NCBI GenBank assembly: GCA_017464475.1
Contig: JAFTZQ010000003.1
Location: 1 to 64,000, forward strand
DNA from: Paludibacteraceae bacterium
GTDB lineage: Bacteria > Bacteroidota > Bacteroidia > Bacteroidales > Paludibacteraceae
Length of the DNA stretch: 64,000 bases
Direction of reading: 5' to 3'
The first letter of the stretch is position 1. Each line of letters starts with the position of its first letter. A program made the position numbers and the translations under genes. This document shows positions 4,927 to 46,863 of this stretch, in pieces. The notes under the pieces were generated by a model. That model was given only the letters and a program-made list of their open reading frames with translations. It made no database searches and had not been told where the DNA came from.

Positions 4927-4966
4927 CAGCCGAAAAGGTTTAGTAACACAAAAAACGTTTAGGTTT

Positions 4967-5185
4967 ATGGTTGCCACTCAATTAAATCCGACACAATTGT
5001 ACTTGCTGCAATTATTCTCTTTCTCCCAAACGAAAGAGAGCCAATTGGATTTGCAGAACGTGCTACAGTCATATTATCGGGAAAAAGTAGCGAAACGTGC
5101 GAATGAACTATGGGACAAGTTGGATCTGGATCAGCAGAAATTAGACGAGATGTGTAGTATTCACGAACGTCTTCCGTATCAATGA
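4967..5185 (+). CDS. Antitoxin-like protein paired with a PIN toxin
   Basis: 72 residues. The N-terminus LNPTQLYLLQLFSF and the Lys/Glu-rich helical remainder ending HERLPYQ match the small antitoxins that precede PIN-family toxins in Bacteroidales. It would bind and neutralise the toxin and probably repress its own promoter, which is seen directly upstream. Its stop overlaps the start of the broken toxin gene (ATGA). Since the toxin is truncated, this antitoxin may now be an orphan. Confidence 0.65.
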   Translation: MVATQLNPTQLYLLQLFSFSQTKESQLDLQNVLQSYYREKVAKRANELWDKLDLDQQKLDEMCSIHERLPYQ

Positions 5186-5396
5186 AAATAGTCCTTGACA
5201 CTAATTGCCTGCTGCAAATCATCTTCCCGCAATCCTATCATAAAGAAGTGTGGGATGCTTTCTTTGCGCAGCAATACACGCTGTGTTTTACATAGTAAGC
5301 AACGACAAGCATTTTGACGAATTAGCAAATTATGACTATCCAAAAGTAGATGTACGTAATCTCACGGAATTTATGCTGCTTTTGCGTCGTCAATAA
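5182..5396 (+). pseudogene. Broken PIN-domain toxin
   Basis: Too short to appear as an intact gene. From ATG 5182 the frame reads MKIVLDTNCLLQIIF (PIN motif 1, with the catalytic Asp-Thr-Asn) and reaches a stop at 5293-5295 after 37 codons. In another frame from about 5289 to the stop at 5394-5396, the DNA encodes YIVSNDKHFDEL and a closing LTEFMLLLRRQ, the conserved C-terminal PIN motif. About 60-65 middle residues, including conserved acidic residues, are missing and the two halves are out of frame. An internal deletion not divisible by three explains this. The toxin should be inactive. Confidence 0.8.
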
Positions 5397-5400
5397 TAAA

Positions 5401-5700
5401 ACCGCTGGCACCGGCAGCGTAAAAAAGCGGTGCGTCACTCACTGACGTTAAACAGGAGGACATATAAAAGGCGTTTATTGACGCTTGTTTTGGTCTAACG
5501 GAATCCTGCAAAATTCACGACCCCAAAACAAGATAGTGCAATAGACGTCCCGTGGGTATGTATTATCCGTCCGCGCCCTTCACGGGCGGGAGGGTTATAT
5601 ATATTCGGGCGTGGACGTTATTGTTTATTCTTGGTTGTAGGGTCTTGCAGGAACCTCGTTAGAAGGAATAAGCGTGAATAATGTTCGCGCTTTTCTTATG
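5401..5700 (+). ncRNA. Candidate structured RNA, copy A (rod-like, with terminator)
   Basis: Largest part of the gap between the toxin remnant and the BspA-like gene. Hairpins at 5401-5431 (ACCGCT/AGCGGT) and 5471-5484 (GCGT/ACGC) are followed by one long interrupted rod. Its pairs are TCTAACG (5494) with CGTTAGA (5657), TCCTGCAA (5504) with TTGCAGGA (5645), GACCC (5519) with GGGTC (5640), CAAGA (5529) with TCTTG (5629), and CAATAgACGTCC (5539) with GGACGTTATTG (5613). It ends in a terminator-like stem (5670-5692) followed by T's. Copy B at 46498-46825 keeps the 5' hairpin and the closing stems with compensatory changes. The form recalls 6S RNA or the Rfam Bacteroidales-1 class, but the identity is unknown. 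No clear promoter was seen for this copy. Confidence 0.6.
5670..5696 (+). terminator. Intrinsic terminator of RNA copy A
   Basis: An AAGCG.GAA / TTC.CGCTT stem is followed by TTTTCTT. It closes the structured RNA about 270 bases before the BspA-like gene, so that gene needs its own promoter or read-through. Confidence 0.5.
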
Positions 5701-5856: not shown

Positions 5857-5969
5857 GGCACATGAAAGGGCATTAAAAATGTACTCTGATTAAGAAATAA
5901 CCAAACAGAATACAACATAATTTATCAACCATTTAAAGTTGCGCCCGACACGAATTTAGGGATTTTATT

Positions 5970-8414
5970 ATGCGAAAAAAACTATTTACATTCTTGCTTG
6001 CTATGGTTGCAAGCGTAGGAACCATGTTCGCCGCTAGCAATTACGGCACCTGTGGTGCCAACCTTACTTGGTCGCTCAACACCTCAACAGGGGTCTTGAC
6101 CATCAGCGGGACAGGAGCGATGACAGATTATATATACCAAGCCCCGTGGTATTCAAGTCGTTCATCTATTAAAACGGTCAATATAGGCAACAGCGTCACA
6201 AGCATTGGGGATGATGCTTTCTATGATTGCAGCAGTTTGACCTCTGTTACGATTCCTAATAGCGTCACCAGAATTGGAAGTCGTGCTTTCTATGAATGTA
6301 GCAGTCTGACTTCTGTAAGGATTCCTAATAGCGTTACAAACATTGGATATGAGGCTTTCTATTGCTCTGCATTGACCTCTGTATATATTTCCGACATCGC
6401 GGCATGGTGTGCGATTAGTTTTGAAAACTCCTCAGCTGACTTTCCGTGCAGTAATCCGCTATTATATGCAAATAACCTATATTTGAACGACACCTTGGTT
6501 ACAAACTTAATCATACCTAATAGTGTCACAAGCATTAGAGATTATGCTTTCATAGGTTGCAGCAGTTTGACTTCTGTAACGATTCCTAGTAGCGTCATAA
6601 GCATTGGGAAAGGAGCTTTCTATCAATGCAGCAGTTTGACTTCGGCTACTATTCCCAATAGTGTCACAAGTATTGGAGAAGAAGCTTTCTGGATGAGTAG
6701 TAGTTTAACCACCATCACTATCCCAAATAGTGTCACAAACATTGGAGATTATGCATTCGGATATTGCAGCAGCTTGACCTCTGTACACATATCAGACCTT
6801 GCTGCATGGTGTGCGATTAGTTTTGGTCGTTCTCCGTTTTATTATGCATATAGCCTCTATCTGAATGAAACTTTGGTGACGGACTTAATCATTCCCAATA
6901 GCGTCACGAGCATTGGAAAGTACGCTTTCGCTTATTGCACCAATTTGACTTCGGTGACTATTCCTCATAGTGTCACAAGCATTGGAGAAAGGGCTTTCGA
7001 TAATTGCAACGGTCTAACAGGTGTTTATATCACGGATTTATCAGCTTGGTGTGGGATAACATTTGGTGATTATAGTGCCAACCCTCTATGCTATGCGCAT
7101 AGATTGTATCAAAACAATGCACTCATAACAGATTTAGTTATACCTTATAATGTAAAAAATATTAAGAATTTTTCTTTTTATGACTGCAGCAGTATAAAGT
7201 CTGTTACAATCCCGACAAGTGTCCTTAATATTGGGGAAAGTGCATTCAAAAATTGTAGTAATTTAATTTATATACGCAGTCTATCATCAACACCTCCATC
7301 TATTACATCCTCAACTTTCTCCAATATTGCTCAAGGTGCGGAAGTATATCTATCTTTTGGCAATGGCTCTATTAGTGCATACTCCTCGGCAGAGTATTGG
7401 AAAAATTTCAACATTCATCCTTCTCTTACGCAAAAAGCAACGATATCTTCTACTTCTTGTGCAATTGTTATAATAGTAGAGGATGTGCAATTGCAATCAG
7501 TCGGTCTTAAAGGAGGTGAACAGCAGCCAGGCAATGTATTGGAATACATCGGATTGGAGCCAAACAGCGAGTATAAAGATGTTCCTGTCATTCTGACCTC
7601 AACTGAAGGACTGACAGAGACGGTGAATGTTTCTTTTAGAACTACCGCCCTTGAACTGACCACCAAGGAGTCCAAGCCGGTTTCGAACACGACGGCTATT
7701 TTGTTGGCAGAGACGAATATGTCCGATGCGGAGGTGAGTTGTGGATTTGAGTACAAGCGGAATGACGCACCGGCAGATATGGACGGAACAAAAGTGTTCT
7801 GTCCGGTAGCTTCGGGTCAAATGGCAGGGCGACTCAAGGGTCTCAAAGATGATGTTTATTATAAATATCGGGCTTTCTATCAGTCTGCGGCGGGTAATAT
7901 GTATTACGGCGACTGGCAGTATATCTTCACCGGCGATGTGGCTGTAGAGTTTGACCCGATACTCTATACGTATGGGGCGACTGTTGTTAAGGAGAACGAA
8001 GCCACTATCAGCGGTTATGCGCTCGCAGGCTCGGAGGATTTCACGGAGCAAGGTTTCGAGTACTGGGCAGAGAGCCGGGCAAACAATAGTACGAATGCTC
8101 CGCGTCGTATGCCTGCGGGACTGAACGAACACTTCTTTGTGCAGGCAAGCGGTATTGCTCTGCGTGCGACGCTGACTAATCTGGATGCCGGGACGGTCTA
8201 TAAATACCGCGTGTATGGCAAAGTTGGTGACCAGTATTACTACGGCTCGGAGCAGAGTTTCACCACCCAAGGCACATATGAAGGTGACGACTCGGAGGCG
8301 ATAGAAGAAGTACCAAGTAGTCAAGTACAAAGTACAAAGATTCTACGCGACGGACAAATATACATTCTCCGCGGAGAGAAGGTATATACTATCACAGGAC
8401 AGGAAGCGAGGTAA
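5970..8414 (+). CDS. BspA-like leucine-rich repeat surface protein
   Basis: 814 residues. Signal peptide (1-22, ending MFAAS), then about a dozen BspA/LRR_5 repeats of 23 residues (VTSIGxxAFxxCSSLTSVTIPNS) to about residue 480. Variant repeats contain ISDIAAWCAISF. Two fibronectin-like regions follow (about 530-780), and a C-terminal tail reads KILRDGQIYILRGEKVYTIT, the kind of sorting signal used by type IX secretion. It is therefore predicted to be exported and surface-anchored; related proteins bind host proteins or other bacteria. The repeats are also close DNA repeats, which invites copy-number change. The tail is preceded by an in-frame heptamer patch (8310-8338, AAGTACA-like). A single-gene unit. 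Confidence 0.88.
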   Translation: MRKKLFTFLLAMVASVGTMFAASNYGTCGANLTWSLNTSTGVLTISGTGAMTDYIYQAPWYSSRSSIKTVNIGNSVTSIGDDAFYDCSSLTSVTIPNSVTRIGSRAFYECSSLTSVRIPNSVTNIGYEAFYCSALTSVYISDIAAWCAISFENSSADFPCSNPLLYANNLYLNDTLVTNLIIPNSVTSIRDYAFIGCSSLTSVTIPSSVISIGKGAFYQCSSLTSATIPNSVTSIGEEAFWMSSSLTTITIPNSVTNIGDYAFGYCSSLTSVHISDLAAWCAISFGRSPFYYAYSLYLNETLVTDLIIPNSVTSIGKYAFAYCTNLTSVTIPHSVTSIGERAFDNCNGLTGVYITDLSAWCGITFGDYSANPLCYAHRLYQNNALITDLVIPYNVKNIKNFSFYDCSSIKSVTIPTSVLNIGESAFKNCSNLIYIRSLSSTPPSITSSTFSNIAQGAEVYLSFGNGSISAYSSAEYWKNFNIHPSLTQKATISSTSCAIVIIVEDVQLQSVGLKGGEQQPGNVLEYIGLEPNSEYKDVPVILTSTEGLTETVNVSFRTTALELTTKESKPVSNTTAILLAETNMSDAEVSCGFEYKRNDAPADMDGTKVFCPVASGQMAGRLKGLKDDVYYKYRAFYQSAAGNMYYGDWQYIFTGDVAVEFDPILYTYGATVVKENEATISGYALAGSEDFTEQGFEYWAESRANNSTNAPRRMPAGLNEHFFVQASGIALRATLTNLDAGTVYKYRVYGKVGDQYYYGSEQSFTTQGTYEGDDSEAIEEVPSSQVQSTKILRDGQIYILRGEKVYTITGQEAR

Positions 8415-45304: not shown

Positions 45305-46417
45305 TTATTCTAAGAGATTGCGGATGTCAGAAAGCAATTTAACGTATTTTTTTAGCACTCGATCCCAATTATGATAATCCTCGTCTTTAGGAGAAGCACC
45401 GGATCTATTGTGATCTTTTTTGTAGGAAACTTGGCTTTGTAATAACATTTTATATTTTAGTTGTCCGTCACCATTATCGGGAATCTCTTTAATTTCAATA
45501 CGAGTACGGACAAACTTATCCTCAAATGTTTCCACATTCCATGCTGTGCGATACCAACCAGAAACATTGTCGTTAATCTCAAGCGTCTCAAATAATTCAC
45601 TAATGTAGTATTTTGTACGCTGAGTCACATCATCTTTACTTCTTCCTTTTCTAACCATCACCTCAAAACGTTTATTGGCGATATCTGCTCCAGGTTCAGA
45701 GGCGGCATAGGCAGCATCAATAACCAGGTCCTGAGTTAAATTATAAGAGGATACATTTTCAGAAAAATTCATTACTCGAACATATTCCAAGTAACCTTCT
45801 GCCCTAATGATTAACTGAACAGGTCTATCTTTATACACTTGAAAAGTTACTGTGTTCTTTCCTTTACCAATCAATAGACCATCCACATAAAACTCAGCAG
45901 CAGGAACATCCACCAATACATTTACATCTCTACGGTTTTGCACCATTTCTATATTATACGACATATGAATATCAGCCTGGTCATAGAAATTAATTGTTTT
46001 GGTGTATCTGTCATATCCATCCGCGGATAAAATAATGTTTTTCGATTCTCCCTTGTTGATCGTAAAATTAACGGGACTTTGCCCCATCAAACGCCCATCT
46101 ACATATATATCAGCGGTGTTCGGATGAGTAGTGAGAGAGACATCTTTCCTATTTGGTTTTAATTTAATCTCCATTGTTTTGGGCGATTTGAGATTCACCA
46201 CAAATGATTCTGAGTCATAGCCATCAGCCTGCGCAGTAAACGCGAGATCAACAATGGAGCAGGTAATACTATAAATGCCAGGCGAAACCGGCTCAAGAAC
46301 TTTGCCTTTTTGCTGCAATACGACAGCATTAGATGGAGATACTGTAATTTGTACAGTTTTAGCAAAGAGTGTAATCGAGCTGAAAACAGCTACTACAAAT
46401 AATAAAATTTTTTTCAT
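45305..46417 (-). CDS. PEGA-domain exported protein
   Basis: 370 residues. Signal peptide (1-19), then three PEGA-like units: VSPSNAVVLQQKGKVL, TTHPNTADIYVDGRLMGQSP and VDVPAAEFYVDGLLIGKGKN, each with the typical x-V-Y-V-D-G-x-x-x-G core. The C-terminal third (YISELFETLEINDNVSGW) is unassigned. PEGA proteins are cell-envelope proteins of uncertain function. The gene is clearly richer in A/T than most neighbours, which may reflect recent acquisition. Its transcript probably begins near 46825 and so carries a ~400-base leader containing structured RNA copy B and a terminator-like hairpin. Confidence 0.78.
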   Translation of the reverse strand: MKKILLFVVAVFSSITLFAKTVQITVSPSNAVVLQQKGKVLEPVSPGIYSITCSIVDLAFTAQADGYDSESFVVNLKSPKTMEIKLKPNRKDVSLTTHPNTADIYVDGRLMGQSPVNFTINKGESKNIILSADGYDRYTKTINFYDQADIHMSYNIEMVQNRRDVNVLVDVPAAEFYVDGLLIGKGKNTVTFQVYKDRPVQLIIRAEGYLEYVRVMNFSENVSSYNLTQDLVIDAAYAASEPGADIANKRFEVMVRKGRSKDDVTQRTKYYISELFETLEINDNVSGWYRTAWNVETFEDKFVRTRIEIKEIPDNGDGQLKYKMLLQSQVSYKKDHNRSGASPKDEDYHNWDRVLKKYVKLLSDIRNLLE

Positions 46418-46497
46418 AAATAAATGATTTTAGAGCCTACTCTTCTGCGGATTTTCGGCTTACTCCGTTGTTTATTAGTAATTATCGACGAACATAC

Positions 46498-46825
46498 AAA
46501 AAGCGCAGACCTCGCTGTTGATTACTCACCAAACGAGGCCTTCGCATTGCCTATAGAGTCAAATAAAACAACAGGAAACCTACGCCGATATGACAAACCG
46601 CCTTGCTCAAGATATAGCAAAGCAGGGTATAATTGTCACACCCATAGGCATCTATTGCTCACTTTGATTTTGACTCTATATTCGAAAGTTGCGAAGTTTC
46701 GTTTGGCCAAACACAAAGCGTCAATAAACGCTATTCATTATGTCTGAAAATCTACCCATACGAAGGGACATATCCCTCCAACGTAGATTTTCTTATCTCG
46801 CTCGAAAAAGCTCGAACGATTGTTT
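46498..46825 (-). ncRNA. Candidate structured RNA, copy B
   Basis: On the minus strand, from a promoter near 46832: a nested hairpin GAAAATCTAC/GTAGATTTTC (46746-46792), the hairpin AGCGT-TTATTG-ACGCT (46717-46732) and TTTGG. The closing stem is CCAAACG with CGTTTGG (plus-strand 46529-46535 with 46700-46706), then CTTCGCA with TGCGAAG (46540-46546 with 46690-46696), and TATAGAGTCAAA with TTTGACTCTATA (46552-46563 with 46669-46680). It ends with an AGCG/CGCT stem and T's (46498-46517). Closing stems at the same places in copy A (5.5 kb) have different bases that still pair. Confidence 0.6.
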
Positions 46826-46831
46826 CGGGTG

Positions 46832-46863
46832 CAAAGGTAGTGCTTTTTTTTGATATGTGCAAA
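46832..46863 (-). promoter_or_regulatory. Promoter of RNA copy B / PEGA gene
   Basis: Minus strand: TTTGC (46859-46863) and -7 box TACCTTTG (46832-46839). Confidence 0.75.

Follow-up and report, generated by a model that had tools for sequence, protein, structure and literature searches.

A recurrent structured RNA upstream of co-directional genes in Bacteroidales, a candidate pseudoknotted leader

The window, a stretch of 64,000 nucleotides from a Paludibacteraceae genome, carries two copies, A and B, of a structured RNA element whose family is real and lies outside the Rfam families searched. Its position strongly supports a role as a cis-acting leader, and attenuation is, as read from the sequence, most likely the mechanism of that leader; taken together, we judge it rather probable that the element is a cis-acting leader RNA and a transcription attenuator of the gene behind it. 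The element looks like a switch that would decide expression of this gene. To our knowledge, little is known about how the many surface genes of gut and rumen Bacteroidales are co-ordinated.

Results

Copies A and B in the window

An earlier note on the window had described copies A and B as two relatives of one structured RNA, with closing pairs at matching places, a U-run at the end and, behind each, a co-directional gene for an exported protein. Every pairing that it named is present in both copies where it had been placed, and the matching closing pairs and the terminal U-runs are found in both as well. Both regions are far more stable than shuffles. For copy A (5401-5700) the folding energy is -127.5 kcal/mol and the mean of its shuffles -84.75 (z -8.35); for copy B (46490-46740) the values are -94.7 kcal/mol and -61.59 (z -6.93), with 0 of 200 shuffles as stable in either case. 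The note's claim of a structured RNA holds. Each copy lies upstream of, and in the same direction as, a gene whose product has a signal-like start (the LRR gene from 5970 and the PEGA gene from 46417). The features are as follows.

5471-5694 (+): copy A, whole element, of a class of ~230 nt
5471-5484 (+): copy A, H1 hairpin GCGTTTATTGACGC, of which 5471-5480 doubles as the 5' strand of PX
5494-5500 (+): copy A, 5' strand of P1, TCTAACG, with its partner CGTTAGA at 5657-5663
5500-5516 (+): copy A, mini-hairpin H2 (GGAA..ATTC), whose loop, 5504-5510, is the 5' strand of P2
5504-5510 with 5646-5652 (+): copy A, P2, TCCTGCA with TGCAGGA
5539-5548 (+): copy A, 3' strand of PX, CAATAGACGT, overlapping rod strand P4
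5557-5603 (+): copy A, apical hairpin M
5608-5615 (+): copy A, 5' strand of P5, GGCGTGGA, overlapping rod strand P4
5621-5631 with 5665-5675 (+): copy A, helix S2, closing the loop that holds P3, H3 and the 3' strand of P1
5633-5638, 5641-5655 and 5657-5663 (+): copy A, inside the S2 loop, P3, H3 with the 3' strand of P2, and the 3' strand of P1, respectively
5684-5694 (+): copy A, 3' strand of P5 and U-run, a terminator-like end
5970-8414 (+): BspA-type LRR gene 3' of copy A (PF13306, 3.1e-86), signal-like N-terminus
46497-46731 (-): copy B, whole element
46718-46731 (-): copy B, H1 hairpin, with the 5' strand of PX at 46722-46731
46700-46706 with 46529-46535 (-): copy B, P1, CCAAACG with CGTTTGG
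46690-46696 with 46540-46546 (-): copy B, P2, CTTCGCA with TGCGAAG
46684-46700 and 46537-46551 (-): copy B, H2 and H3, respectively
46648-46657 and 46589-46640 (-): copy B, 3' strand of PX and apical hairpin, respectively
46561-46571 with 46518-46527 (-): copy B, 5' and 3' strands of S2
46579-46586 with 46502-46509 (-): copy B, 5' and 3' strands of P5, the latter with the U-run spanning 46497-46509
46860-46863 and 46832-46839 (-): promoter-like TTTG-N20-TACCTTTG of copy B, read by eye
46434-46468 (-): DUF805b RNA motif (RF02914; 38.8 bits, gathering score 35.6), a separate element
45305-46417 (-): PEGA-domain gene 3' of copy B (PF08308, 3e-13), signal-like N-terminus

Since TTTG-N20-TACCTTTG, which we take to be a Bacteroidetes-type promoter motif, lies upstream of copy B, this copy should give a transcript of about 330 nt, a length that the earlier note had guessed. 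Upstream of copy A, the exact TAnnTTTG was absent, by eye, from its usual place.

Scanned against Rfam, neither the element in the window (E up to 5) nor that in 20 further loci (E up to 1) matched any family; the sole match in the window above the gathering score was DUF805b, between copy B and its gene. Literature searches, whose scope did not extend to a 2017 collection of candidate bacterial RNAs, found nothing on the element, and the words Bacteroid, Porphyromonas and Prevotella are absent from the main texts of PMC11109978 and PMC8632094.

Two domains joined by kissing helices

The 183 usable copies were reduced by shared 6-mers to a non-redundant set of 106, of which 45 come from outside the genus, and this set was aligned in two halves; 14 copies had been dropped (7 near contig ends and 7 without a clear T-run), as had duplicates and copies with N. 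Covariation was assessed against a null of our own, simulated on the tree in 20 replicates, rather than with R-scape. The helix table derived from the alignment comprises P1, P2, S2, H2, M, PX, P5 and parts of P4, and the better-supported reading of it is a fold of two hairpin domains joined by the kissing pairs P1, P2 and P3, not a plain rod. The 5' domain would be closed by PX, 10 bp between GCGUUUAUUG (from the 5' hairpin) and CAAUAGAUGC, and the 3' domain by P5, 8 bp between GGCGUGGG and UCCACGCU, which ends at the U-run. P2 is a kissing interaction between the loops of two small hairpins, H2 and H3. The kissing pairs are able, on paper, to coexist with PX, S2, P5 and M.

The kissing helices covary most clearly. 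Against the null, P1 and P2 supply all of the eight top pairs, at E about 0 and with 87-99% pairing, followed at E 0.1-0.3 by one pair each of P5, PX and P3 and two further P1 pairs. Pairing with the copy's own partner compared with that of another copy (106 copies) was.91/.54 for P1,.97/.75 for P2 and.70/.44 for P3, and compensatory events on the tree numbered 129, 57 and 74, respectively, against 6.7, 2.5 and 5.0 for random partners. The best null pairs of S2, H2 and H3 reached only E 0.95, 1.45 and 5.9, so that the support for these helices rests on the other tests. Own and other-copy pairing was.96/.93 for PX,.96/.92 for P5,.92/.84 for S2,.93/.82 for H2 and.79/.76 for H3, and in slid registers the pairing of PX, P5 and S2 fell to 0.32-0.67. 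Compensatory events compared with random partners were 14/4.2 for S2, 11/1.4 for PX, 8/1.6 for P5, 11/1.8 for H2 and 10/1.3 for H3. In the 45 copies outside the genus, P5 had 5 compensatory events (1.2 random) and 11 breaks (50 random), PX had 6 events (1.0 random) and was 91% paired, and S2 had 8 (1.6 random). Taken by domain, PX+H2 had 94.8% of cells paired against 89.9 ± 0.3 in shuffles and 36-48% when slid, and P5+S2+H3 had 94.0% against 88.2 ± 0.3 and 40-52%, with 0 of 500 shuffles reaching either value; PX alone was 95.3% paired (106 copies) and P5 alone 95.6% (105 copies). An RNAalifold consensus of 21 whole copies was uninformative.

These results modify the picture of a single interrupted rod given in the earlier note. 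A long rod is indeed computed, but the helix table supports PX and P5 better than P4, the rod's middle stem, and the simple rod was therefore dropped. The 5' hairpin strand of that picture forms the longer PX, and P5 overlies its terminal stem. Covariation, which had been read from two copies, holds for P1, P2 and P3 in the 106 copies; P4 (CAATA..TATTG) stays complementary but has no compensatory excess. Two further candidates were rejected. The local hairpin T is no universal terminator: 81% of its cells are paired outside the genus and 62% within, and its 7 compensatory events outside the genus compare with 3.1 in controls (control maximum 9), which makes it type-specific at best. Locally folded ends had a mean z against shuffles of -2.88 in the genus and -0.48, hardly more stable than shuffles, outside it. 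S1, an inner stem of the 5' domain, was 70% paired and appeared in 40 of 106 isolated folds.

The rod stem and competing folds

P4 is built from two strands that also serve elsewhere, one being the 3' strand of PX and the other the 5' strand of P5. Its own and swapped pairing in the 106 copies was.88/.84 in the lower part and.83/.79 in the upper part, with 6 and 5 compensatory events against 3.3 and 4.7 for random partners (control maxima 10 and 10) and 56 and 70 breaks against 116 and 150. Outside the genus, the events were 3 against 1.8 random (lower) and 1 against 2.9 (upper). Column 3'34 pairs with both column 88 (P4) and column 3'109 (P5) within the same copies, the triples 88/3'34/3'109 being C-G-C in 45, U-A-U in 29 and U-G-C in 24 of 106; in the null its P5 pair is near significance (E 0.1), and its P4 pair, 88 x 3'34, is not significant (E about 95). 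P4 thus overlaps PX and P5 and stays complementary, with compensatory events that do not exceed the control.

Computed folds depend on the length supplied. Isolated domains keep at least half of PX in 104, of P5 in 95 and of S2 in 92 of 106 copies, and the full-length folds are rods, with upper P4 in 73, P1 in 79 and P2 in 89 of 106, retaining PX, P5 and S2 in only 7, 5 and 6. Because the folding program cannot place pseudoknots, these folds show competition for strands and not the native state, and the second state, the P4 rod, could be an artefact of this blindness. No other part of the attenuator model is as weak as the antiterminator helix. In 20 type-II copies, a three-strand tracking was observed: the 3' strand of P1 fits its P1 partner at -7.2 (swapped -3.0) and the terminator strand at -2.80 (swapped -2.19), with 0 of 200 swaps as good in each comparison. 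In addition, a hairpin within about 90 nt past the U-run, with a loop complementary to the terminator arm, occurs in 30 of the 45 copies outside the genus, compared with 12.8 ± 2.5 for swapped strands and 4.9 ± 2.5 for shuffled downstream DNA; within the genus this signal is weak (11 of 61 against 5.0 swapped and 6.9 shuffled).

Genomic context

Genes were called as ATG-started ORFs of 90 aa or more, and the next gene was judged within 900 nt, which left five copies unjudged that have no such ORF in this range and seven too near a contig end. In all 94 judged non-redundant copies, the next gene lies on the same strand (0 opposite), at a median distance of 90 nt; upstream neighbours number 55 on the same strand and 38 on the opposite one. 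In the redundant set, the next gene is on the same strand in 159 of 165 cases, opposite in 2 and missing in 4. The promoter-like TAnnTTTG lies at -130 to -55 in 62 of 101 copies (4.4 in shuffles) and between the U-run and the start codon in only 13 of 94. The distance from the U-run to the ATG is about 60-150 nt for the middle half of copies and within 30 nt in 4 of 94. At two loci of this genome (L197/L267 and L198/L273; C9 and C13), an MBOAT gene and a DegT-type gene begin immediately after the T-run, where a separate leader has no room (L267 and L273).

Among 142 distinct downstream proteins (first 330 aa), BspA-type LRR proteins were the commonest, with 16, and FHA, PEGA, MBOAT, DNA methylases, restriction enzymes, aminotransferase and glycosyltransferase, among others, occurred in one or two cases each. 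In this tally, which covers the first 25 of 66 families, no common pathway was seen, and a defence theme was rejected, restriction and methylase genes being only one or two cases each. Signal-like N-termini, scored by a home-made rule, were present in 76 of 144 distinct downstream genes against 173 of 594 background ORFs (Fisher p 1.5e-7); export of the downstream product, as noted earlier for copies A and B, is therefore not general.

Several other sequences recur around the element. The DUF805b motif is also found in locus L177 (1782-1816), and its place between element and gene suggests that the leaders are built of separate modules. A sequence close to AAAGTTGCGCCCGACACGAATTNAGGG was seen by eye shortly before start codons in the window (about 5935-5961, +, with no Rfam match there) and at L020, L044, L047, L143 and L214. 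Upstream of many copies, a further 5' hairpin, CACGCC..GGGTGGG, followed by GACATA, precedes H1; its 5' part, searched with a rough pattern, was seen in 45 of 106 copies. Toxin-antitoxin-like genes were noticed by eye just upstream of some copies (4966-5400, +, in the window, and L005, L017 and L023), and the pair in the window looks PIN-like and broken.

Family size and distribution

A search of this genome with the 14-base hairpin gave eight places; the five exact ones are all followed by the element, which is absent after the three with one mismatch. A longer pattern was present in 10 of 41 genomes (this genome included), all of one genus, and a pattern scan of titled genomes matched at least 117 stretches; the 80 titles listed are those of metagenome bins, chiefly of animal gut origin, named as Paludibacteraceae, Bacteroidales, Muribaculaceae and the like. 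Searches were extended with covariance models of the 5' half (R1, and R2 from 106 copies) and of the 3' half (R3, 105 copies); over more than 40 genomes, 10 to 28 candidates were scored per genome, and copy counts there are lower bounds. R1 matched 145 of 151 sampled genomes of the genus, including 61 of 61 of good quality, with 13 matches in this genome and at least 24 in another, the highest number. R3 gave 18 matches in this genome at E 0.001 and 20 at E 0.01. This genome carries at least a dozen copies of the element. The exact H1 pattern had served to pick most copies of the genus, and R1, built from these copies, then found the rest; the invariance of H1 and of the PX 5' strand in the genus follows from this selection. 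Four copies of this genome (L278, L279, L280 and L283) may form a divergent subgroup, in which, by eye, P1/P2 and the 3' end are kept and the first hairpin differs.

In the order, R1 matched 49 of 393 Bacteroidales genomes (27 of 206 sampled genera), R2 at E 0.001 matched 68 (40 genera; 50 genomes at 1e-6 or better) and R3 at E 0.001 matched 91 (51 genera). The two halves agree independently: of the 18 R2 matches listed for 12 genomes without a training copy, 11 are followed closely, in the same direction, by one of the 150 R3 matches listed, and 7 are not. Class-wide, R1 hit 4 of 395 genomes, each of them in Bacteroidales, and R3 matched 5 of 222, two of them with single weak matches (3e-4) outside the order, so that the weakest Bacteroidales matches may include chance ones. 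The element is almost confined to Bacteroidales, with nearly none in other orders.

Discussion

Proposed mechanism and alternatives

In the attenuator model, transcription would start at the promoter-like sequence upstream of most copies, and the RNA would fold into the two hairpin domains tied by P1, P2 and P3. Because the closing helix P5 ends directly at the U-run, this fold would act as a terminator. Alternatively, the strands of PX and P5 may pair with each other as P4. The result is the rod, which computation gives as the minimum-energy fold of the whole RNA; P5 would then be removed, and polymerase should read on. Outside the genus, the hairpin past the U-run, with its loop complementary to the 3' terminator arm, would be present only in read-through RNA. 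The sequence itself shows the architecture, the covariation, the overlap of the helices, the shared direction of element and gene and the promoter-like sequence; termination, antitermination, which way the switch turns and one ligand or trans factor that would serve every copy are suppositions of the model. For the widest form of the proposal, an order-wide class of pseudoknotted leaders with two domains, three kissing helices and a bistable terminator that places up to about 20 diverse genes per genome under one signal, we consider the chances evenly balanced.

A small RNA that stands alone, runs from a promoter to a terminator of its own, acts in trans and only happens to lie upstream of other genes would account for the promoter-like sequence, the terminal U-run and the fact that P1, P2 and P3 are complete without the gene. 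It would not predict that all 94 judged copies share the direction of a gene at a median of 90 nt, that a promoter-like sequence separates U-run and gene in only 13 of 94, that the start codon abuts the T-run in two copies of this genome or that, among the 45 copies from outside the genus, 30 carry a complement of the terminator arm past the U-run, and we regard this explanation as fairly unlikely.

It is somewhat less likely still that the leader controls translation or mRNA stability and that the U-run is an unstructured start region. Bacteroidales use A/U-rich start regions; the start codons directly after the T-run in two copies of this genome and within 30 nt in 4 of 94, together with the downstream hairpin and DUF805b-like modules near start codons, would fit such control. 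However, a GC-rich P5 stem that ends at the T-run has the form of a classical intrinsic terminator, a T-run was present in 183 of 190 copies by our own criterion (chance rate unmeasured), and in the middle half of copies the ATG lies about 60-150 nt past the U-run. Attenuation by the leader remains the preferred reading.

A mobile or recombination element (MITE or attC-like), with the palindrome acting as DNA, is very unlikely: the copies are many, scattered and often before accessory-looking genes, but G-U pairs are common in the helices, the same downstream gene retains its copy in different records (L045 and L086), and a phage or plasmid origin was rejected on zero matches in viral contigs (pattern), plasmids (copy A, blastn) and phages (copy B, blastn). 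A 6S-type regulator of RNA polymerase, the resemblance suggested in the earlier note, can be dismissed almost entirely, since its long computed rod is set against 18-20 matches in one genome, where 6S RNA would have a single or few trans-acting copies, against linkage in cis to co-directional genes, and against the lack of an RF00013 match in this genome, a negative that is weak alone, given a genome completeness of 71% and a search that was positive in only 5 of 14 control genomes.

If the leader reading is correct, one shared leader RNA, found in 61 of 61 good-quality sampled genomes of the genus and, by model, in 27, 40 or 51 of 206 sampled genera of the order, would offer a single point of control whose strands can be tested. 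In the widest form of the proposal, it would also define a leader-RNA regulon that takes in surface, sugar-coat and restriction genes as well as others, a breadth unusual among bacteria. A leader in which three loop-loop helices link two closed domains, of which one ends at a terminator, would be, as far as we know, a rare architecture.

Comparison with known systems

The element resembles 6S RNA (RF00013) in its rod-like computed fold and differs from it in family match, copy number and gene linkage. DUF805b RNA (RF02914), found beside the gene of copy B and in L177, is also a cis-regulatory leader motif; it is 35 nt long, with a sequence and structure of its own, and is not part of the element. 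Like the processive antitermination leaders (the LoaP target, EAR and put) and those of Bacteroides UpxY, the element stands before surface polysaccharide and other surface genes; compared with them, it is larger, pseudoknotted and ends in its own terminator-like stem. Control of the UpxY or LoaP type, by a NusG paralogue, was rejected on a single PF02357 match in the 71% complete genome: with one NusG gene found, a UpxY-like partner is not supported. A leader-peptide attenuator was likewise rejected, because no small ORF is conserved; an ATG-ORF of at least 8 codons occurs in 52 of 106 copies, with scattered starts.

The element comes closest to the attenuation riboswitches and leader attenuators, with which it shares the 5' leader position before a co-directional gene, the terminator-like stem before a U-run and, in the proposed model, strands shared by alternative helices. 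It differs from them in that the genes seen have no common pathway, which is unusual for a riboswitch and counts against this class, in that it has no conserved small ORF, and in its three long-range kissing helices.
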